Shown here piece after piece: positions 8,984 to 63,033 of a stretch of DNA of 63,033 nt. The stretch is from Falciphora oryzae (taxonomy: Eukaryota; Ascomycota; Sordariomycetes; Magnaporthales; Magnaporthaceae). The notes beneath the pieces were generated by a model that was not told the DNA's origin, ran no database searches, and saw nothing but the letters and a program-made list of their open reading frames with translations. Location: contig JNVV01000098.1 in NCBI GenBank assembly GCA_000733355.1, positions 1-63,033 of the forward strand. Reading direction: 5' to 3'. Numbering within the stretch: the stretch's first letter is position 1; each line of letters begins with the position of its first letter. The position numbers were made by a program, and so were the translations under genes.

Positions 8984-10609
8984 CTACTTTTCCTGACAGG
9001 TGCGCGCATTATGTCCGGTTTTGCCGCAAGTGCCACATCGCCGACGAGTTGTCGTCGCCCTCCTTTTTTGAACACCATGGTCGCGCATTTCTTGCTGTAG
9101 CTGTCCATCCAGTTCCTGTTGGTCCAAAACATCTCGTACTTCGTCGATGGTAAGTGACCCTCCAAGTCGGACACGTGTTTTTTTGGCCCTCCGGCGTTTG
9201 CTTAGTGCTTCGTTCGCCCTTCGTAGCCTGGAGCATTCTTCTTCCAAAAGGTTGACCCGATGCATGATTGCTTTAGCCCCTTTCGCAAACTGGTCCACAG
9301 CCGCTAGCATGGATGTCGGAGAGCTGCTTTGGTGATTGGAGATCCGAGTTTTGATGTGTTCGGATTGCGAAGTTGCTTCTTTAGCTGTCCGGGGCGTTTT
9401 GGAAGTCCAAGGTTCGGGGTCGTTTAGGGGCGTCTTTGGGGGAGTTGGAGTCCGTAGCCTCACATCCAGCTTTTCCAGAACCGAGTCCGGATTAAAAGGA
9501 GCAAGGCCAGCCCCTCGAAAGCCTCCTCGGATGTTTTCTTTGATCATAGAGGCAAAAAATGCCGCTTTGAACGCCGAAAGGAACTCGACTTTAGTTACGT
9601 GGTTAACGTGCGACCTCATCAAATCCTCGATTTGTCGACCGTACGCCTTTTTCATTGGGCTGAAGCACCCAACGTCAAGCGGTTGAAGGAAGTGAGACGA
9701 ATGCGGAGGCATGCAAAGCGTAATGATGTTGTGTTCCTGGCAGTAGAGCTCGAAATCCGTCGAGTGGTGGCTTTCGTGGCCGTCTAGCACTAACAAACGA
9801 TGGGAGCTTTTCGTGCGCGATGCAGTGTGTTTGTCGAAGTGCTGGATCCATTCCAGGCCGAGCTCGTTCGTAGTCCACCCGTTGGAACTCGTTGCGATAA
9901 CCCAATTGCGTGGGAGGTCGGTTTCCGAGTACCAATTAGCTAGGTGGTACTGCCCTTTGACGATGATGAAAGGGGGGATCGCCCAACCGCAACAGTTAAC
10001 CCCTTGGATAACTGTAGCCCATTCCCGATTGCCAGGTTGGACCAGCTTTGCTTTGCCACGGCCCTCCGATGTTGTAATGACCATAACGGCCGCGATCATG
10101 CCCATAAGGAAGCCGGTTTCGTCGAAGTTGTAGATGTCGTCATCTAGGATGCCATATTTGGCCACAGTGTTCCGCACAAGGTCGAACCATGCAGAAACAA
10201 GCTTGGGATCTTCGCACTTGGCCCTTTGGTAATCGTACTTTCGAATCCAACGCGTGCCGAGCTCTGTGCGGCGTTTGACGAACCTTTCGACCCAGCATTT
10301 ACCGACGGTGCCCGCGTTGCGTTCGGCGAGCAGTCGGTTGGCCATATCTTCAACACCAGAAGGCCGGGGAGGAAATGCGCGAGAATCTAGCTCAAGTATG
10401 TACTTGACAAGCGCCTCCTCTTCGGATTCCGTCAATTTCCGGGATTTGGGCATTGTGTCGCGTCGAGCAGGTCGGCCGCGCTTCCGATACGCGAGACTGC
10501 CAAACGCGACGTCGTAAAGCTTTGCAGCAGTCCGGATGCTTAGATTTGGATCTTTTTGCAAAGCTTGAAGGGCAAGAATTAGCCGACTTTCTTTATTTTG
10601 TTCTGCCAT
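8984..10609 (-). CDS. Fot1/pogo-family DDE transposase
   Basis: This 541-residue protein would cut and rejoin the element at TA sites. The first in-frame Met with a complete HTH domain is at 10609; the open frame continues 92 codons upstream through the inverted repeat and copia sequence, so that part is not native. Domains in order are an N-terminal psq-type HTH (about 8-45), a CENP-B/Tc5 HTH (about 55-125) and the DDE_1 catalytic core. The core has NFDETGF for the first Asp, LVLDGHESHHS for the second and QPLDVGCFSPMKKAYG for the third. A coiled coil (about 430-460) and an unusual C-terminal CCHC knuckle (CGTCGKTGHNARTC) follow. Every catalytic motif is present, so the protein may be active. 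Confidence 0.93.
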   Translation of the reverse strand: MAEQNKESRLILALQALQKDPNLSIRTAAKLYDVAFGSLAYRKRGRPARRDTMPKSRKLTESEEEALVKYILELDSRAFPPRPSGVEDMANRLLAERNAGTVGKCWVERFVKRRTELGTRWIRKYDYQRAKCEDPKLVSAWFDLVRNTVAKYGILDDDIYNFDETGFLMGMIAAVMVITTSEGRGKAKLVQPGNREWATVIQGVNCCGWAIPPFIIVKGQYHLANWYSETDLPRNWVIATSSNGWTTNELGLEWIQHFDKHTASRTKSSHRLLVLDGHESHHSTDFELYCQEHNIITLCMPPHSSHFLQPLDVGCFSPMKKAYGRQIEDLMRSHVNHVTKVEFLSAFKAAFFASMIKENIRGGFRGAGLAPFNPDSVLEKLDVRLRTPTPPKTPLNDPEPWTSKTPRTAKEATSQSEHIKTRISNHQSSSPTSMLAAVDQFAKGAKAIMHRVNLLEEECSRLRRANEALSKRRRAKKTRVRLGGSLTIDEVRDVLDQQELDGQLQQEMRDHGVQKRRATTTRRRCGTCGKTGHNARTCQEK

Positions 10610-10664
10610 GTTTGTGGGTGGAGGAATTGATCGCGAAAGTTTGTGTGTCGCGTCGACGCGTTTG

Positions 10665-10707
10665 GTGTGCCGCTTGGTGATGTGTGCCGCTCGCTGATGA
10701 ACCACGT
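10665..10707 (-). repeat. Right terminal inverted repeat of the Fot1-like element
   Basis: Inverted copy of 8848-8890, ending ...GATGAACCACGT and followed by the TA duplication. Confidence 0.9.
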
Positions 10708-10709
10708 TA

Positions 10710-10912
10710 ACGAAAACGACGTTACTAAGCCTTAGGTCCTTATCGCCATATATGGACCCTTTAAAAATACGTAATCCTCTGCTTAAAATCGGGAAACTTT
10801 GGGTGCCGTATTTGACGGTTTTTAAACCGTTGCTCGGTACGAAAGACCTTGAGTTTAGCTTATTAAGCGAGTTAACCAGGTGCATCGCACCGCAATTGTT
10901 TAAAGGCGTACT
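10710..10912 (-). pseudogene. Copia protease segment
   Basis: The minus-strand frame reads from a Gly-Ala-Met-His start, resembling the region after the copia protease DSGA motif, into VPSNGLKTVKYGT and then LRLSNVVFV. It is cut by the Fot1-like insertion and resumes at 8847. This block is open, which makes the transposase ORF look longer than it is. Confidence 0.65.
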
Positions 10913-15780: not shown

Positions 15781-16099
15781 ACAGCGCTAAATGGCTTGTT
15801 AGAGCCCACATAGCGATTCCGGCTCATTTTGGTGGCCCCAACACCAGAAATGGCCGTGCTCCCTTAACACCTACTAACAGCGGGTGGAAGGGAAAATTTT
15901 TCGGGGGGAAGGTGGTCGAGGACATATATGGTCAGTTGCCCTACCGATTTCCCCTTCCCCAGCCATGCTCTCCTGGGGTTTGCCCCCACAACTCCTAGAG
16001 TTCCATCGTCTCCAGCTTCCGCGACCTCCGCGCCTTCAGCCCCTTGGCCTTGAGACCTTAGAAGTTATCGTCTACTGTGGCAGGCTTCCGCTGTGCGAT

Positions 16100-18700
16100 A
16101 TGTCGTCTATCCGGTACAATTATCGAAGCATCGACCGCGCGGCCGATACAATTCGTCTGCTCAGCCTAAAGGCGGGATCCGACGGTGGCGCCGTCTGCTG
16201 CTCGCTATTCGAAGCCACCATCAACGAGGAATGCGTGTCCTACGAGGCCTTGTCCTACGTTTGGGGTGATACTTCCAACATGTTCGACATATTCATCCAC
16301 GGTTCGAGGTACCAAGTTACGGCAAATCTGTACCAGGCCCTGTTGGCTTTGAGGCTGCCCGAGCGGGATCGGATCCTATGGATCGACGCAATTTGCATCA
16401 ACCAGGACGACCTGGACGAGCGGGGACACCAGGTTCGTCGCATGAGGCTCATATACCAGTACGCCGAAAATGTCGTCATCTGGCTGGGCCCCGGCAACCA
16501 TCGGACCGACATGGTCCTCGACTGGATGGATTGTCTCGATAAGAGAGTGAGAGCCCGACCGAACTACCGGCCGCATTCGCCGGTCGCTTGGGAAGAAACC
16601 TATCTCCAAGTTTGTCAAGACGACGAGCTCAAATTTCCCGCATTCGGCGACACGCATCAAGCGGCGCTTCAAAACGGCCTCCTGGGGCGCGACTGGTTCC
16701 GCAGAGTGTGGGTCCTGCAGGAAGCTGCGAGCGCCCGAGCCGCGCGCATCCACTGCGGTGGCAAATCCGTCCCCTCGAGGACGTTTGCGATGGTCCCGCT
16801 GCTGGCTGGGATGACTGTCCCCAAGTATGTCGACGCAATCCTCGACATCATGCCGGGCCCCCGAGGCTCCCCCTGGCGCGAGAGCGAGCACAAGTTTGAG
16901 GCGCTCCTGCAGCAATTCGGCGACAAGGAGGCGACGGACCCGAAAGACAGACTGTACGCCTTGATCGGTATGTCGGCAGACGCCTATAACAACCGTCAGT
17001 TTGAAGCGGACTACAATTGGTCCGTCGACGAGGCGATACGAGCCGCGACCAGGTTCATGTTCTGCTCGCATAGCCCATCTGCTGCGCTGGCTGAGATGGA
17101 GTGGGAGATGCGATGCTGGGATATAGGAATGGATGAATTTCTCTACGGTCTTGCGACAATACCAAATAAGCTTCTCGATTGGGCAACGGAGCACGGTCAC
17201 ATCAGGCTCATCCAGTCTCTTCTATCCGGTGGCCGCCTTCAACCGGCCGAACCCCTTTCAGACACCGGCCCTCGCCCCCGCACTCTCTTAGAGTTTATGG
17301 TGTTTGCTCAAATATCAGAAGGCGTTGCGGGGAAATTACTGAGGGAAATCCGTCTGTCGGTCGATGAGATGAGTATTACTGGGCAGGACGCTCGCTTGTT
17401 AGCCGCATTTTCGGAGCTTTTTGGCCACCGGACCTTGGTGGTATCGGGGTTTCAGTTCGTGGTTCCTTCTCGGGAAAAGGGGGTCCGGTTCTACTCGGGC
17501 GATAAAACAGCAACTAAGCTGCACGGCCGCCGGATGACTCTGGAGCTGGCTGCAGCTGGCGGATACGCCGAGTACCTCCAGCTCTTTCTAGACACTCTCG
17601 GGGATCACCCGACGCCGATAGGGTGGGAGTGTGAGCGGGAGCGACGGCCGGCGCAGGAGCGAGAGGAGTGGGAGTGGAAGCAACGGTTGAGGCAAAAGTG
17701 GGAGGAGTGGGAGCGGAAGCCACGGTCGAGGCAGGAGCGGGAGAAGTTGGAGCGGGAGGAGTGGGAGCGGAAGCCACGGTCGGAGCAGGAGCGGGAGGAG
17801 TGGGAGCTGAAGCTATGGCTGGAGCAGGAGCGGGAGGAGTGGGAGTGGGAGCAACGGCTGGGGCAGGAGCGGAAGGAGTGGGAGCAACGGCTGGGGCAGG
17901 AGCGGAAGGAGTGGGAGCAACGGCTGGGGCAGGAGCGGGAGGAGCGGGAGCGGAAGCTATGGCTGGAGCAGGAGCGGGAGGAGCGGGAGCGGGAGGAGCG
18001 GAAGTGGAAGCTATGGCTGAAGCAGGAGCGGGAGGAGTGGGAGTGGAAGCAACGGCTGGGGCGGAAGTGGGAGGAGTGGGAGCGGAAGCTACGGTCGGAG
18101 CAGGAGCGGGAAGAGTTGGAGCGGAAGCCATGGCTGGAGCAGAGGCGGAAGAAGCTGGAGTGGAAGCTGAAGAAGCCGGAGTGGAAGCTGAAGCTATGGC
18201 TGGAGCAGGAGCGGGAGGAGTGGGAGTGGGAGCTATGGCTGGAGCAGGAGCGGGAGGAGTGGGAATGGAAGCAACGGCTGGGGCAGAAGTGGGAGGAGTG
18301 GGAGCGGAAGCGACGGCTGAAGCAGGAGCGGGCGCCACATCAACATCTTTACGAATCATTCGCCAACGCTCTCAGCCTCGCGGCAGCGCGTGGTCACACC
18401 GAGGCTGTGCGCACGCTTGTTCGTTCGAGCTTGTGGCGGTCTTTTCCCCGGCGGAATCCGGTCGGCGGCCTCGTTTCCATCGCGCTAATTAACGCTGCGG
18501 CCAACGGGCACGAGTTAATCGCAGATTTACTAGTTGATCATGGACTTGATTGCGACGAGGAGGTACAAGATATCATGTGGCTGCCTGAGCAGAAACGATT
18601 CGTTACTTACGACGAATTCTGCAAGTGCGACAACTATAAGGAGTTTGAGGCAGGCGTAATCAGCGCGAATAAGGCTCGTGGGAAGGTGGAGATCCTGTAA
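16100..18700 (+). CDS. HET-domain protein with ankyrin-like repeats split by a charged coil
   Basis: HET-domain proteins mediate vegetative incompatibility and cell death in ascomycetes. The start at 16100 (MSSIRYNYRSID) sits just before the HET domain; the open frame extends to 15884 but that part looks non-homologous. The protein has 866 residues. HET motifs are YEALSYVWGD (about 48-57), LWIDAICINQ (93-102) and WFRRVWVLQE (199-208), followed by DPKDRLYALIG. Ankyrin-like helices occur at about 470-505 and 750-815. Between them lie about 235 residues of Glu/Trp/Arg/Gln repeats of 11-13 residues, predicted to be a coiled coil or single alpha helix. No intron is needed. Whether the coil-bearing allele is functional is unknown. 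Confidence 0.88.
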   Translation: MSSIRYNYRSIDRAADTIRLLSLKAGSDGGAVCCSLFEATINEECVSYEALSYVWGDTSNMFDIFIHGSRYQVTANLYQALLALRLPERDRILWIDAICINQDDLDERGHQVRRMRLIYQYAENVVIWLGPGNHRTDMVLDWMDCLDKRVRARPNYRPHSPVAWEETYLQVCQDDELKFPAFGDTHQAALQNGLLGRDWFRRVWVLQEAASARAARIHCGGKSVPSRTFAMVPLLAGMTVPKYVDAILDIMPGPRGSPWRESEHKFEALLQQFGDKEATDPKDRLYALIGMSADAYNNRQFEADYNWSVDEAIRAATRFMFCSHSPSAALAEMEWEMRCWDIGMDEFLYGLATIPNKLLDWATEHGHIRLIQSLLSGGRLQPAEPLSDTGPRPRTLLEFMVFAQISEGVAGKLLREIRLSVDEMSITGQDARLLAAFSELFGHRTLVVSGFQFVVPSREKGVRFYSGDKTATKLHGRRMTLELAAAGGYAEYLQLFLDTLGDHPTPIGWECERERRPAQEREEWEWKQRLRQKWEEWERKPRSRQEREKLEREEWERKPRSEQEREEWELKLWLEQEREEWEWEQRLGQERKEWEQRLGQERKEWEQRLGQEREERERKLWLEQEREEREREERKWKLWLKQEREEWEWKQRLGRKWEEWERKLRSEQEREELERKPWLEQRRKKLEWKLKKPEWKLKLWLEQEREEWEWELWLEQEREEWEWKQRLGQKWEEWERKRRLKQERAPHQHLYESFANALSLAAARGHTEAVRTLVRSSLWRSFPRRNPVGGLVSIALINAAANGHELIADLLVDHGLDCDEEVQDIMWLPEQKRFVTYDEFCKCDNYKEFEAGVISANKARGKVEIL
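17630..18335 (+). repeat. In-frame minisatellite inside the HET gene
   Basis: Imperfect 33-39-bp units (for example GAGTGGGAGCAACGGCTGGG repeated at 33-bp spacing near 17877-17945) encode EWEQRLGQERK-like peptides. The strand is almost free of T, so several other frames, including a 281-codon antisense frame, are open by composition alone. Confidence 0.93.
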
Positions 18701-52647: not shown

Positions 52648-53867
52648 TCAGCTCGACAGCCAGGTGCCGTTGGACCGGGAAAAAAAAAAGTTACATACCA
52701 CAGCTCCCGGCACAGGAACAGCACTGTACTTCGCCCTTTCATCCCTCGGGTATACCTCACTCGGCGCCACAAAACTGCGGACCGGCCTCCCGTGGTATTC
52801 GGTCATGGAATCGTCATAAAATGCCTGCACCTCGTCCAGATCCTGCTGCTGCACGTGCCACATGCTCGAGTCGTCGTAGTAATTCATAACGCTGCTCGGG
52901 TTCCGGTTTTTCCATGTGACAGACCATTCCGCTTCCCGTTCCGAAAATTCGTGCCGCAAGCCGAGGATGTGGCCGATTTCGTGCGCGAGAACGTTGGCTT
53001 GGTTGCCGATGTGGTTCGAGGTGAAGGCCAAAGCGTAGATCGATAGTGTGCGGCGTTCAGAGGCGTCGTCATTGGGGAGGAAGGCGGAGGCAAGCACGCC
53101 CGACCCGTCATTGTCACGGTACACGACGCAGAAGCTGGCCCCGTCGTTGCGATGCACTTGTCTGAGGCGGACGCCGACGTTTTTCCACATGGCGATGGCT
53201 TCTGTGAGCTTGGCGGTGGCGTATACGGCGTCGTCTGCGGTCGGAAACGTTTCGGAGCAAATGACGAATGTGAGGACCTGCCCGCGCCGCCATCGGGGGA
53301 CGTCGTTAACGAACCCGACCTGGGCCCCGAACGGTGAACCGTTGTTGGGGCCCCGGGTGCCGCAGCGGCACGCGTGCGAGCCGTAGGACTCGAGCAGCGG
53401 GCGGGCTGCCCCGAGGCCGAGTCTTGGCGTGTACGGGGTGACGGTGATGGTGAAGCGTGCCGCCGGTCCACCCCCGGGGCTTTCGGCACCCTCGAGGTCC
53501 AGTTCACGGGGATAATGCGTGTCCCCAGAATAAGGCTCTGCTCCGCCAGCGGCCTGGGCCACATTGGCCTCGATGCCGACCTCTTGTGTGTTCTTGCGGT
53601 CCTGGGTCTCCCGAGCTCCCTTGATCTCGTCGCCGCTGTCGGAGAACGGGCTGGTCAGGGCGGACAGGCCATCGCCGAGCGCGGTTTCGCTGGTTGTCGC
53701 CGCGTCCTCGGACGGGTCGCGCGACGAGAAGCTGCGGGCTTCGTTGATTGCGGTGCCGTCGTTGGCGGCAAGGTCGGTGGGTGGACCCGAACGGTGGGGA
53801 TTGCATGGGTTGGCGGCGATGGTGGCGAAGAACGCATCGGCCCGGTCGCCGTCGCAGGTGAGTGGAC
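52648..53867 (-). CDS. Metzincin-type zinc metalloprotease, 5' exon unresolved
   Basis: The protein contains HEIGHILGLRHE (52948-52983), the zinc-binding motif of metzincins with three His ligands and the catalytic Glu. It is followed by a Met-turn, SVMNYYDDSSM, as in astacin/matrixin-like enzymes. It would hydrolyse peptide bonds. No signal peptide is visible in this exon. The frame has no ATG; the GTG at 53562 is not a credible nuclear start. A branch site CTAAC with an acceptor ending TTTAG just upstream of 53867 shows that an upstream exon must exist. One phase-compatible donor is GTGAGG at 54222, at the end of the flotillin-like fragment. The C-terminus after residue 250 is unfamiliar. 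Confidence 0.75.
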
Positions 53868-56240: not shown

Positions 56241-57074
56241 ATGAGTACCGCACAGAATCCGACCTTCTTCCTTGCGCCGAACTGGCACTTCCCGCCCGGC
56301 GGACGCATCGCCATCGGCAACATCATCCGCGACCCGCTGCAGCCGCACCGTCCGCTGTCGAAGCTAGACGCCGCCGCCCTGGAGACCGAATCGGTCCCGG
56401 ACACGAACTGGCGCCTCTCGGTCGGGACGGCCATCAACGTCAACGCGAGCGTCTGGGCCACGTTCTTGGAGAAGATCAGACTCGGCGCCGGGGTCTCCCG
56501 CGGGCGCCTCCACAGCGGAAGCTACACCATGCGGGAGCTGGAGACGGTCTGCATGAAGAGCGACCCGACCGACGACGAGATCCGGCTGCGGTGCAACGAG
56601 GCGAGCGTGCGCGAGTTCATGCGCGCGGACAGCGTCCTCCGCCACCCCGTCTACATGGTCTCGGGCATCAAGATCGCGAGGGGCTTCGCCCTCAGGGCCC
56701 AGGTGGGGGCGCGGACGGGCGGCGCGCTCGGGCTCGGCGGCGAGGTCGCACCCGCGGCGCGGCTCGTGGCCGAGGCCCAGGCGTCCAGCGAGCGGTCCGT
56801 GTCGAACGAGTTCGAGGCCGGAGGCGACATCGTCTTCGCGTACGAGCTGCTAAAGATCAAGCCCAAGGGGTGGGGCCGGGAGGTGGAGTTCGAGGTTGAG
56901 GAGTACCGCCATCGTAGGGCCTTCCTCGGCGAGGAGGAGCGGGTCCCGGACGAGGAGGTCGAGGGCGAGATGGACGTCGTAGGCCCCGAAGATCTGGAGG
57001 ACGCGCACGTCGTTGATCTGCCGGGGGTGTGCATCGCGTATAGTGACGAAACTGATGACGAAACTGCAAAATGA
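56241..57074 (+). CDS. Fungal gasdermin-like pore-forming cell-death protein
   Basis: The 277-residue protein starts at ATG 56241 (AAAAAAATGAG context); the open frame upstream is not homologous. It has the hallmarks of fungal gasdermins (RCD-1/HET-Q1 family): FFLAPNWHFPPGG near the start, IGNIIRDPLQPHRPL (25-39), TNWRLSV (56-62), the TMRELETV region (96-103), HPVYMVSGIKIARGFAL (135-151), NEFEAGGDIVFAYELLKIKP (189-208), KGW and EEYRHRRAFLG. A strongly acidic tail of about 48 residues follows Phe228-Leu229. In this family the N-terminal part oligomerises in membranes after a protease removes a C-terminal piece of about 5 kDa. The convergent neighbour encodes a subtilisin-like protease, as expected. 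No stops or RIP signs. Family assignment is from memory of motifs. Confidence 0.85.
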   Translation: MSTAQNPTFFLAPNWHFPPGGRIAIGNIIRDPLQPHRPLSKLDAAALETESVPDTNWRLSVGTAINVNASVWATFLEKIRLGAGVSRGRLHSGSYTMRELETVCMKSDPTDDEIRLRCNEASVREFMRADSVLRHPVYMVSGIKIARGFALRAQVGARTGGALGLGGEVAPAARLVAEAQASSERSVSNEFEAGGDIVFAYELLKIKPKGWGREVEFEVEEYRHRRAFLGEEERVPDEEVEGEMDVVGPEDLEDAHVVDLPGVCIAYSDETDDETAK

Positions 57075-57317
57075 AAGGGTTTAAATGTATTCAAGTCCTA
57101 TTCTTAGGGAAGGCTAGTCATCCGGTCACTCCCTAGACGGTAGCATAAATTGTGGATGGCTCGTTGTGCTGGCCGACGAGGAGCTGGGGAGTTAGCCAGT
57201 TAGGCTACTTCGCCGACCCTACCAAACACTATGGAACATGTTATAAGCGCTTGAAACCAGAAAGGCTATCTATGCGTTGGGCTTCCTACTGCCCATGTTA
57301 AACAGTTCATCGTAGGA

Positions 57318-60090
57318 TCACTCTCTTTTGGGTAACTCTGCCAAAACCCCTTGGATGCGTTTTTTTGCAGTTTCTGTGTCCTCGAAAAAAGGAAACGGCG
57401 ATATATAACGGGGCCTGGCATTCTGATCCTGACCCCTGGTCATCATCCCGAAAACAACCAACATACCCCGTTTCGTGCGAATATCCTGCTTTTCGGTATC
57501 AGACAGTTGGCAATCAACAAAGGATATGATGGTGGCCGCAATGGCCGCCATGATGGGCGTGGCGACAGAACAGCCCGACTTGTCGAGCGACCCCACGGTC
57601 CAGCCGCAGCGGACGTCGCAAGCCAGGGTGCCGTACATCTCGTCCCTGCTATGCGACCAGGCGTTGGGGCAGAACGGCTGGTAGGGCGCACCGTCGGCGC
57701 GGGTGCCGCGGACCGAAATGACGGCTTCGGAGAAGGCGGGAAACATTTCGTTCCGGTTTTGGCCGTGGTTATTTGCGGCGGCGAAAAAGATGCGTTTGCC
57801 GTCGTTAATGGCGCTTGCGATTTCGGATTTCTCGGCATCAAAGCCGAAGGACATGGAAATGATGTCCACTTCCCGTTCCTCGACGGCGCGACGGATGGCA
57901 TCCGCAATTGCTGCCCTAGCATCCAAAAGACCGCTCTCGTCCTTCGCGATGCGTATGACGTGGAGCTCGGCGGTTTCGGGGAGCAGGCGGAGGAGGAGCG
58001 CGGCGAGAGCGGTGCCGTGACGCTCGCGGTCTTGGTCAACCGGCCCGCTCGACCCTTCAGCCATATCGAGCCAACCGCGCTTCACGCGCTTCACGTGCCC
58101 GAAGCCCGGCCCGCTGAAAAAGTCGTGATCGAGGTCGCAACCCGTGTCGAGGATCGCGACGCGGACCGGCTTGGCAGTTGCGTGGCCGCGCGACAGCTTA
58201 TCCAGCTTCTTTTTAATGGCGTCGAATGCTTCCAGCCACGAGGCGCTGTCGGTTATCTTGCGAGTGACTGTCAGTTCTTGCTCTTCCCCATCACGGGAAT
58301 CAATCACTTCTCGTCCTCGCCACTTTCTGAGGGACTGTACGCACGGATCTTTGAGCAGCAAGGAAGGAGTTAGGTGCCGAAACAGGCCGAAGGGTGATCG
58401 AGGATGACGGCGGGGAGACGGAGACAGAGGGGATGCTGAACTGGTGAGAGCGGGGAGCCGTTCTCGCCTCGGCAGGAGGCTGGGACTTCGGGGGCCTGAG
58501 GAGACTGAGTGGTTTCACCACGCCCCGGTACATGTCCGCCCAGAACAAGGCGCCGTTGTGCTCCTCGGGCGGCCCGTAGTGATCGGCGGTATAGAGGTCG
58601 AGGCATTTGGAAAAAATCTTGACACTGATAGGATCCAAAAGCAGCTCCTTGCAATCTTCCTCCTCCCGGCTTAGCGCGTTAAACAGAGTCGCGTCGTCGT
58701 CATCCGGCTCCTTGTCGGCGTCTTTGATCTCGATCTTCCGCCCGAAGAAGAGCTCATACAGAAGGACGCCGAGGTGGAGTACGCAGGATTGTGCACGCGA
58801 TTGCACCGACTCGGGCTGCAAAATGTCCCCACCCAACGTGCAGGAAGCGTACAGCTTGGCCTGCATCGGAGCTCCGCCGCCGCCGCCGCCGCCGTCGGTC
58901 CTCGTGATGAGGATGGCGTCCGAGTTCCACGGGTCCCGCAGGAGGGGGCTGCCCAGGAGACACAGGAGTGATCTTGCCACGATTTCGGCGAGTTCCACCC
59001 TCTCCGGCCTTTCCAGTTTCTTGGGTCCCCCTTCTCCCCCCGGCACCTCGGCACCTGGAAACAAAAGCTGGCGGAGGGTTTTCGTAGGAGCAATGGCGTG
59101 CTTCGACAAGCGATTGGAGTCCAGCCGTTCCCAGGATTTGTCGCGTCCTAGCTTGATGCGAAGAGGCGTCTTTATCCGATGTTTGTTTTTCAGCTCGGAG
59201 CAGATGCTGTCTTTGCGCTCCAGGTGCTGGTGCCTGTCTGCCGCGCCGAGCCATTGGACGTGATGCCACTTGATCTTATCTGCGGTGCTCCCGCCACACA
59301 AAGATATGATGGTATCAATTTCGATCTTCTCGTGGAAACCCGTCAGATGAACCATGGCCAGATGGGGAGGATGGCACGGTCCATTTGACGAGGCAACTAG
59401 CTCCGTGAGGGCTTGAGCGCTGTCTCGAATTCTGCGGAAGCGGCGCAGCTCACCAGCCTCGTCCGGCGCAAAGTCACTGGAAGCGTTCTGGGGCTGCGAG
59501 GGACTCTGGAAAATCTCCGTCATCGGCTGCTCCAAATCGATTGACGGGGAGTCGAAAACGCTCCTCATCGCGTCATTGAAGCGGCGAAACTCTTCTGCTG
59601 CCCTGCTGTATGAGGCTGCTCTGCTGTATGAGGCTGCCTCGCTGTATGAGGCCGCCTCGCTGTATGAGGCTGCCTCGTACCGGATCCAGCGCGATGGCTC
59701 CAAAGAGTCTCTCAATTTCTCCAGTTTGGGCCGGCTTCCTGTCGCGGTAGCGGCGGCGGCGGCGGGGGGATTCGGGATCGACTCATCGATCAGGGTCTCG
59801 AGAAAAGCGAGGATCTGCCGTAGCGCGACTGTCGCCTCGTCCAAGGCGTCCTTGTCGGGGAGGTCGCACTCGGCGCTCTCGGTCGTGAAGCTGCGCGACA
59901 GCTGCTGGGTTTGGAATCTTAGCAGCACCACGGAATTGGCCAAACGAACCTCCGGCCGACTCGTCTTTAGGGTAGGGCCCTCCTGGGAGGTAGGAGGGGT
60001 GTTGGTGATTTGAGGAGGCGGCGGCAGTGAGTCGATGAAAGCGGAGCGGACAGCCAAAAACAGCTGCGCATCTTCATCTGCTAGTCGCAT
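57318..60090 (-). CDS. DUF7580-like N-domain plus subtilisin-like (S8) protease, HET-Q2-like
   Basis: Likely activator of the gasdermin-like neighbour. The start is the Met at 60090 (MRLADEDAQLF). Exon 1 (58384-60090, 569 codons) carries an N-terminal region with five EAASYS-like repeats (about residues 139-163). It then has a fungal DUF7580-like segment with LCLLGSPLLRDPW, KLYASCTLGG, LHLGVLLYELFFGRKIE and ADMYRGVVKPLSLL. Exon 2 (57318-58334, 338 residues) is an S8 domain with Asp632 in VAILDTG, His675 in ERHGTAL and Ser825 in GCSVATP, plus AAANNHG for the oxyanion Asn. The frames overlap by one base shift; a 49-nt GT...CAG intron (58335-58383) joins them in phase, giving 907 residues. The donor GTTTCG is weak, so a frameshift is the alternative. 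The two genes are convergent. Confidence 0.85.
58335..58383 (-). other. Proposed 49-nt intron of the protease gene
   Basis: GTTTCG at the 5' end, TACAG at the 3' end, CTAAC near the donor. Its removal puts the N-terminal frame and the protease frame in register. The branch site is unusually close to the donor. Confidence 0.5.
59603..59678 (-). repeat. 18-bp coding tandem repeat
   Basis: Four to five units containing TGTATGAGGC encode EAASYS/RAASYS hexapeptides in the protease N-terminal region. Confidence 0.9.
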
Positions 60091-61020: not shown

Positions 61021-63033
61021 ATGGACCCTTCAAACGCGCCCGGCCCGACCCAGGGCTCAAGTCGACCAATCTACGACGCCGCAGAGCTGTGCTTCCAACT
61101 ATTTGAACAACTCCTGAAGAAAGCGACCACCACGGACAAGGAAAGACTCGCAGCCGAGGACCTGCATGGACGCTTTCGGCAGTGGGCTGCTTACCTCGGC
61201 GCCTTTGCAGTACCCAAGGCTTCCTTGGACGCAAGACTGGCCTTCCACGACGATATCAGGGACATGGTTCTCGAGCTGCTCTCCATGGTCCAGTCGAACC
61301 TGCGCTGGGGTGAGCCGTCCTCGTCGCCGTGGTTATGACCGGAGTTGGGTCACTGACCGATCACGCAGCATGGGACAACCATGATGAAGCAGCAGATTGC
61401 GCAGAGGATGCTCCCGGCCTCGCTGCCGTCCAGACCGCAATCAACTGCCTCCTCGTCCAGGCCGTGGCGATACGACGCTCCGCTCGCCGAATTAGCAGTT
61501 TGGGCCTGGGCACGTCCGATGCGCAGGCCGAGGAGGCTTGCGTCTTGCTCATGCGACATCGCTACCCCAAGGCGCCCAGGAGCCTGTGCATTCAATTGGG
61601 CGCTTCGATCTGCAGACGCGGAACGTCTCTGCGATACCTGCAGCACCACAATAAGAAACTCGCATATCGGGGAGGTAGGCACGACGATGCGGTTCCCAGC
61701 GCCGAGGGGGGTCTGCCGCCCCCCAACACTGCGGACCCAGAGCCGCTGCCAGGCCCCGATCCGCGGGCCGGCGCCCAGGGGGCTGCCTCGTCTCCGGAAA
61801 CACTACCTTCCCAGGTGCATCCCTCCGCCATCCGCCGCTTCAACCAGCCTAAGAGCAAGCCGACCTCATCCATCATCAGCAGAGGCACCGCCGCCCGAAT
61901 GGACGGCTTCTGCTACCCCCCACTGCCAAAACCACAACAGGCTGGCAGGACGCCTTACTCGTGCACCATTTGCGGCGACCCTTTCAAATCGTCCACCTTG
62001 ACTGAGAAGGAGTGGAGGTATGTCGAGCGCCAAGGGTCCCATCAAGTCATCTCGCATCTCATCACCTCTCATCTCCCGTCAAACCATCAACACGAGCCAG
62101 TCTGACCAACCCGGCCTACAGAACGCATGTCAACCAAGACCTCGAGCCATACGTCTGCGTCTCCGAGTCCTGCAGCGATCCCATCCAGTACTTCATCCGC
62201 AAGCAGGACTGGATGAATCACATGATCCAGCGGCACACGCATAACTGGGCGGAGAAGGTCCACACGGCGAGGTGGTACTGCGACGTCTGCCCCGAAGAGC
62301 CCCAGCCGCTCGAAGAGTTCGAAGAGCTGGCGTCGTTTGCCGAGCACCTGAGGACAAAGCACGGCGACAAGCTCTCCAAGTCACAGCAGCTGGGCCGAGC
62401 AAGACGCAACCGAAGAACCGCCACCCGGGACCCCTTCGTGTGTCCCCTCTGCGACTGCGTGCCCGCCGGCGATATCCAGGCCCGCATCAAGGAGAAGCCG
62501 TACTCTCTGCTCGCGGAGCACATCGCGAGACACCTCGAGTCCCTGGCGTTCCTGTCCCTGTCGCACCTGGAAGACGAGGATGACGGAGGCCGGCACAGCG
62601 AGTCCTTGCCCTCAGCAAGCAAGAAGAGAGACCAAGACGGACCAGCCACGACCTCGACTCGTGAGGATGCGGATGACGCGTTCGAGGACATTCCCCCGAC
62701 GGAGATCAGGGGAAATAAAAGGAAAGTGGATAACCAGGACTTCGAGGAGCCCGAGGAAATGGAAAACCCAGTCGTCTGGCCGCGTGAATTGACTCGACAA
62801 TTCTCCGGCTCTGATTTGACGCTAGAGAGATTCGCTGCTGCACTTGCCGGAGCCTACCGGGCTAGCGGCCAAGTTGAAGACGGGCACGAGGCCGTCGTTA
62901 AGCTGCTGCTCGAAAAAGGGGCCGACGTCGATTCGAAAGATCCGAACAGGCAAACGCCGCTGTTAATGGCTGCGGAGAACGGGTACGAGGCCGCTGTTAA
63001 GCTGCTGCTCGAAAAAGGGGCCGACGTCGATTC
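61021..63033 (+). CDS. C2H2 zinc-finger and ankyrin-repeat protein, truncated by the window edge
   Basis: Exon 1 is 61021-61309. Intron 1 is 61310-61368 (GTGAGC...CTGAC...CAG, 59 nt). Exon 2 is 61369-62017. Intron 2 is 62018-62121 (GTATGT...CTGAC...CTACAG, 104 nt). Exon 3 runs from 62122 to the edge, and all phases agree. The N-terminus (CFQLFEQLL...GRFRQWAAYLGAFA...SLDARL) is the helical domain common in fungal ankyrin and NLR-like proteins. Zinc-finger-like pairs follow: YSCTICGDPF, YVCVSESC with HMIQRH, WYCDVCPEE with HLRTKH, and FVCPLCDC with HIARH. An acidic, Lys/Arg-rich linker leads into ankyrin repeats of the VKLLLEKGADVDSKD type. It is probably a nuclear or cytoplasmic regulator or immune-like receptor; the function is not established. 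Confidence 0.82.
62888..63033 (+). repeat. Nearly identical 99-bp ankyrin units at the right edge
   Basis: The second unit begins at 62987, exactly 99 bases after the first. 45 of its 47 visible bases match, so the array is homogenised at the DNA level. It continues beyond the window. Confidence 0.9.

Follow-up and report, generated by a model that had tools for sequence, protein, structure and literature searches.

A probable protease-gated gasdermin module in Falciphora oryzae and its apparent DUF7580–protease fusion

Results

The contig JNVV01000098.1 of Falciphora oryzae (GenBank assembly GCA_000733355.1), analysed over its full length of 63,033 nucleotides and called the window below, contains at positions 56241..60090 two genes arranged tail to tail. 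One encodes a gasdermin, the other a subtilisin-like protease of the S8 family, apparently spliced to a DUF7580 domain. The two genes probably constitute a protease-gated gasdermin module. All comparisons with paralogs were made in one fungal genome of 50 Mb.

The gasdermin gene

The gene at 56241..57074 (+) is a single open exon of 277 residues. A profile of eight sequences (A1: the window protein and seven relatives from its own genome, hand-picked, full-length, one frame each) matched in the PDB RCD-1-1 (E 3.9e-19), RCD-1-2 (6.7e-19) and the HET-Q1 pore (9uv9, 2.8e-15). Weaker matches were 7n51 (1.1e-4), the bacterial gasdermin 8sl0 (1.9e-4) and 7n50 (0.005); we take 7n50 and 7n51 to be bacterial as well. 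All eight PDB sequences matched at E ≤1 are gasdermins or RCD-1. The matches to RCD-1 and HET-Q1 cover profile positions 8–210, and the pore-forming core of the window protein is placed accordingly at approximately residues 8–209 (56262..56867, +). Because the profile matches solved gasdermins and RCD-1, the window protein is, by transitive homology at the sequence level, a fungal gasdermin. A preliminary description of the locus, made from the sequence alone, had noted gasdermin motifs in a 277-residue protein, and the matches to RCD-1 and HET-Q1 bear this out. The Pfam search of the window protein gave zero matches, and none of the eight A1 members had a gasdermin match in Pfam, the sole row being unrelated and non-significant (E 0.15). 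In the genome, the window protein used as a query yielded 17 rows at E ≤1, its own row counted; the two weakest were later dropped.

The core is followed by the motif RRAFLGEEE (residues 225–233; 56913..56939, +) and by a short acidic C-terminal tail (residues 229–277; 56925..57071, +), which is presumed to be inhibitory from the role of its counterpart in HET-Q1. The 47 residues after RRAFLG hold 19 D+E and 2 K+R. For comparison, 16 C-termini from the genome were printed and motifs picked by eye; the one from L025 was left out, leaving 15 readable gasdermins. An acidic tail (38–68 residues, more acidic than basic) is present in 14 of them, the exception being that of L018, which was read in one frame and is possibly not a true exon. 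A hydrophobic pair directly after the core is seen in ten, including the window gasdermin. In HET-Q1, according to PMC10989679 (the literature is cited here and below for individual passages of the papers), cleavage occurs at F238 and 40 residues are lost. By analogy with this site, the window gasdermin is predicted to be cut after F228 or L229, losing 48–49 residues.

The S8 protease gene

A gap of 243 bp (57075..57317) separates the end of the gasdermin frame from the stop of the S8 frame at 57318 (−). The S8 frame (57321–58361, −), open over 347 residues, matches PF00082 with E 8.7e-15. The catalytic triad has its Asp codon at 58146..58148 (VAILDTG), the His codon at 58017..58019 (RERHGT) and the Ser codon at 57567..57569 (SGCSVATP), all on the minus strand. 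Aligned to the subtilisin BPN' chain, the window His and Ser are in register, while the Asp column holds Gly in that chain, presumably an engineered variant. Upstream, the frame 58372–60090 (−) matches DUF7580 (PF24476, E 5.3e-33); the domain itself, possibly a degenerate, MLKL-like pseudokinase judging by weak MLKL and kinase profile matches, spans 58504..59439 (−).

Most of what the preliminary description had said of the protein stands: the Asp/His/Ser triad, the tail-to-tail arrangement at 243 bp and the DUF7580-like domain in front of the protease were all recovered. The profile search that it had proposed for both proteins likewise turned out positive, with solved gasdermins on one side and PF00082 on the other.

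DUF7580 and S8 are encoded by exons in different reading frames, so splicing is needed to join them. We enumerated introns of 45–200 nucleotides that keep both conserved flanks, 31 models in all, and scored them against a splice-site consensus. The best candidate, an intron of 88 nucleotides at 58344–58257 on the minus strand (GTGCGT...ACTGAC...CAAG), scores 7 against 6 for the runner-up; alternatives exist. It yields a protein of 894 residues, with exon 1 (58345..60090, −) comprising the N-terminal region and DUF7580, and exon 2 (57318..58256, −) comprising the S8 domain. The 907-residue protease of the preliminary description is a possible splice model, but it is outscored by the 894-residue one, lies outside the 12 best models listed, and is not a single open frame. 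The distance from the end of DUF7580 to the Asp motif is 91 residues in the shorter model and 104 in the longer one. At three paralogous loci (L012, L018, L029) a single uninterrupted frame runs from DUF7580 into the front of S8, which supports the fusion in the window; the corresponding spacing is 81 residues in L012 and 82 in L018. Hence the window S8 protease is apparently spliced to the DUF7580 domain, as far as the reading frames tell.

Between the protease N-terminus and DUF7580 lies a coding tandem repeat of 18 bp × 4.5 with EAASYS-like units (59597..59677, −), whose length may differ between strains. A HeLo/4HB domain at the N-terminus of the protease was considered and rejected, as residues 1–205 had zero Pfam matches.

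Gasdermin–S8 pairs across the genome

Four whole-genome searches with single gasdermins, at E ≤0.03, identified 20 gasdermin places; the matches at C2:1606078 (E 0.066) and C10:524063 (E 0.34) were considered too weak to be counted. Rows matching S8 were merged by hand into 53 places, and 79 kinase rows, unmerged, served as a control; only S8 was counted as the linked protease. An S8 place was found within 10 kb of 17 of the 20 gasdermin places and of 2 of the 79 kinase matches, the expectation by area being 2.2% (binomial p ~7e-26). One more pair, at C58:113650, is outside the 20, since it was found only via a locus fetched for its S8; with it, there are 18 pairs. Nine of these, including that of the window, are convergent, six are tandem with the protease first, one is tandem with the protease second, and two are divergent.

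DUF7580 lies within 3 kb of S8 in 15 of the 18 paired places, the exceptions being C4, C17:545757 and C52. Conversely, a gasdermin accompanies 15 of the 16 S8 places that have DUF7580. Not every copy of the domain goes with S8: of its 29 places, 13 lack one within 3 kb.

Some loci show particular features. The region C58:70787–123040 contains three gasdermin–S8–DUF7580 sets and two lone DUF7580 places, and C2:43822–55869 has two such sets inside about 12 kb. At L021 (C70:9001–19000), the gasdermin has no S8 match within 10 kb, and a frame with FHA and kinase matches is located about 3 kb away. Among the 18 paired S8 domains, 12 have their halves in separate frames, with the break near profile position 84–127, probably an intron; in four the match covers just the C-terminal half, and two (the window and L027) are unsplit. 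The paired S8 of L018 (C41:303001–313000) has Pro at the column of the catalytic Ser, which may mean that the protease is dead or that the pair is decaying. The pair at C17:545757 stands beside a HET-domain frame (L014:1624–2811, −; PF06985, E 7.2e-35).

Co-divergence of the partners

The distances between gasdermins correlate with those between their S8 partners (r 0.76, n=18 loci, permutation p 1e-4; L024 and L025 were excluded as weak). With only L029 removed, r is 0.78 (n=17). In a reduced set, from which the close relatives L018, L019, L026 and L031 were dropped together with L029, found through its S8, the correlation is 0.54 (n=13, p 0.0004); it is 0.52 for the C-terminal half of S8 alone (n=13, p 0.0005), and 0.49 for the ten reduced-set loci with DUF7580 (p 0.003). 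In the full set, the DUF7580 distances are correlated with those of both partners (r 0.65 for gasdermin, n=15; r 0.60 for S8, n=16), and this is lost in the reduced set. Such a pattern could arise if the enzyme and its substrate were kept matched while the sensor was exchanged or diverged fast. The contrast between DUF7580 and the two partners is only suggestive, however, because the loci are few and all distances are near saturation (0.72–1.04 for DUF7580, 0.70–0.99 for gasdermin, 0.72–0.94 for S8).

The DUF7580 domain

Two profiles of DUF7580 were compared with the whole PDB at E ≤10. For the first (A2, nine hand-picked copies from the genome), nine of the ten rows are MLKL (E 0.0098–0.2), the tenth being a dCTP pyrophosphatase (E 1.5). 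For the second (A3, 19 domains from the genome spanning at least 150 profile positions), all six rows are MLKL (E 0.016–0.34). An hhalign comparison of A3 with 11 kinases from the same genome gave E 3.7e-4 over 152 columns, co-linear over the C-lobe; the controls, a reversed and five shuffled kinase alignments, gave E 0.049–0.47, and the gasdermin alignment gave 0.61. The HRD and DFG motifs were not seen by eye in the nine A2 sequences or in the hhalign consensus. The literature search by the name DUF7580 found no paper.

The kinase nature of the domain has to be set against several facts. Each of the MLKL matches is non-significant singly, and they are not independent, because most of the entries represent one and the same protein. 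The hhalign probability is only 36%. None of the nine A2 domains matches a Pfam kinase family at E ≤10. The structure predicted for 58501–59439 without an alignment has a pLDDT (predicted local distance difference test) of 34, too low to inform on the fold. With all this considered, the profile comparisons tip somewhat in favour of DUF7580 being a degenerate kinase-like domain, and it may be an MLKL-like pseudokinase that serves as a sensor or a clamp.

Proposed mechanism and alternatives

We propose that the gene pair encodes a protease-gated gasdermin module, in which the DUF7580–S8 partner cuts the gasdermin near F228/L229 and the core forms pores, and estimate the probability of this at roughly three in four. 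The 277-residue gasdermin would be kept inactive by its short acidic tail. In the partner of about 900 residues, the N-terminal region and DUF7580 would sense a trigger or hold the fused S8 protease shut. Once triggered, the protease would cleave the gasdermin near F228/L229 and release 48–49 residues, and the freed core would oligomerise into membrane pores, leading to cell death, probably in defence. As both genes lie in cis in one genome, the protease presumably must be off at rest, and DUF7580 with the N-terminal region would be its natural gate. Activation of a gasdermin by a protease is documented for the HET-Q1/HET-Q2 system, and likewise for a TPR-CHAT pair (PMC10989679, PMC12881547).

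Several observations weigh against this interpretation. As a lone query, the window gasdermin has RCD-1-1 as its best PDB match at E 0.064, and the structure predicted for 56241–57071 without an alignment has a pLDDT of 31, too low to inform on the fold. The intron needed for the protease has only moderately good splice sites. Five of the 15 readable gasdermins lack the hydrophobic pair; what they have in its place is either one hydrophobic residue or a less strict form of the motif. Three of the 20 gasdermin places (C70, C59 and C9:353140) have no S8 within 10 kb; C59 and C9:353140 are short pieces. Finally, at the ten reduced-set loci with DUF7580, the distances of this domain correlate neither with those of the S8 from the same locus (r −0.13) nor with those of gasdermin (r −0.02).

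The preliminary description had regarded the locus as a module of a gasdermin and its activating protease for both cell death and allorecognition. The pairing of a fungal gasdermin with its probable activating protease is supported by the homology, the triad and the recurrence of the arrangement at 17 of 20 gasdermin places, whereas allorecognition is not favoured. As a true het locus, it would have an incompatible allele or idiomorph in other strains and would act when unlike strains fuse and the protease of one strain cuts the gasdermin of the other. Precedents for het loci with gasdermins are het-Q1/het-Q2 and rcd-1 (PMC12881547); further, the 63-kb contig carries a HET-domain protein, and one of the paralogous pairs adjoins another HET frame. 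However, the window partners are in cis and convergent, unlike the idiomorphic het-Q genes, which are alternatives at one locus, and it seems improbable that each of 17 pairs in one genome is a het locus. If the protease is indeed off at rest, a sensor-gated module fits better than a locus of the het-Q type. We consider allorecognition unlikely to be the main function of this pair.

Decay of the pair appears less likely still. In this case the change of frame between DUF7580 and S8 would be a real break, and the sensor–protease fusion would no longer be made. The three paralogs that are intron-free at this junction, set beside the moderate splice sites of the window, are compatible with a break, and some pairs may be decaying, because L018 has Pro in place of the catalytic Ser. 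Still, in the window both the DUF7580 frame and the 347-residue S8 frame are open, the triad is intact, and an in-frame intron of 88 nucleotides is available, complete with donor, branch-like and acceptor sites. That the genes are chance neighbours and the protease has another substrate is hardly credible: although S8 proteases are numerous in the genome, with 53 places, chance neighbourhood was rejected by their linkage to gasdermins as compared with kinases (17/20 against 2/79, p ~7e-26), and the gasdermin and S8 distances covary.

The protease-gated module thus being preferred, a broader proposition may be put forward tentatively, and we regard it as rather doubtful in its entirety. DUF7580 could be an MLKL-type pseudokinase and act on gasdermin-activating proteases as a sensor that can be exchanged, joining a necroptosis-style switch to a pyroptosis-style pore in about 15 copies, with the sensor swapped or rapidly diversified and the protease and gasdermin remaining matched. 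If DUF7580 is indeed an MLKL-like pseudokinase, the switch logic of necroptosis would be linked to the pore of pyroptosis. The stimuli that activate fungal sensors are named as a major open question in the legend to Fig. 6 of PMC12881547. The 17 pairs in one genome, most with DUF7580 near the protease, provide a panel for studying both protease–gasdermin specificity and the function of the sensor.

Other genes of the contig

The frame at 15884–18700 (+) encodes the HET-domain protein (PF06985, E 1.8e-31), which has weak ankyrin-repeat matches and is likely to be an incompatibility or immunity gene. A DDE transposase frame with a Tc5-type DNA-binding domain occupies 8984–10885 (−; PF03184, E 4.3e-31). 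The frame at 52648–53562 (−) has zinc metallopeptidase matches (Reprolysin_4, E 1.5e-7; Matrixin, 7.1e-7), and the one at 62012–63031 (+) ends in ankyrin repeats and runs off the contig end.

Comparison with known systems

The module most likely belongs to the published type of Q2-like (Q2L) clusters of ascomycetes, for which Clave et al. 2022 is reportedly the primary source. Such clusters pair a gasdermin with an S8 protease at most 10 kb away that carries a sensor-like domain, and the window pair appears to follow this plan. The difference is in the accompanying domain: WD40, ANK, TPR and NLR parts are those named in the passages of reviews that describe the clusters, while in this genome DUF7580 is found near 15 of the 18 paired S8 places. 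The general architecture of a kinase-like domain with a protease is already known, since a 2025 review describes the protease domains of such clusters as joined to "predicted kinase-like domains" (PMC12881547, Fig. 6 legend). Also mentioned beside gasdermins are NLRs that contain an S8 or CHAT domain (PMC9815663), and a CHAT protease is a het gene in Aspergillus fumigatus (PMC11138114). Among fungal gasdermin genes, about 80% are clustered with protease genes and about 60% with S8 (PMC10989679, PMC10197012). The number of gasdermins per genome is five on average and exceeds 20 in some (PMC10989679), so that a genome with about 20 gasdermin places is at the high end and not outside the range.

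The HET-Q1/HET-Q2 system of Podospora anserina resembles the window pair in that HET-Q1, 278 residues long, loses a short C-terminal part to an S8 subtilisin-like protease (PMC10989679). Unlike the window genes, which are both in cis, het-Q1 and het-Q2 are idiomorphs (PMC12881547), and HET-Q2 has 388 residues (PMC10989679) as against about 900 in the window protease with its DUF7580. RCD-1 of Neurospora crassa is the best PDB relative of the window gasdermin by profile (E 3.9e-19), but its activity depends on two alleles pairing, with no cleavage involved (PMC12881547), whereas the window gasdermin has a linked protease. With the DUF7580 profiles, MLKL was the sole kinase to turn up in the PDB, and its matches were weak. 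In MLKL the pseudokinase governs a four-helix part that kills by acting on the membrane (PMC12881547), whereas DUF7580 is apparently fused to a protease.

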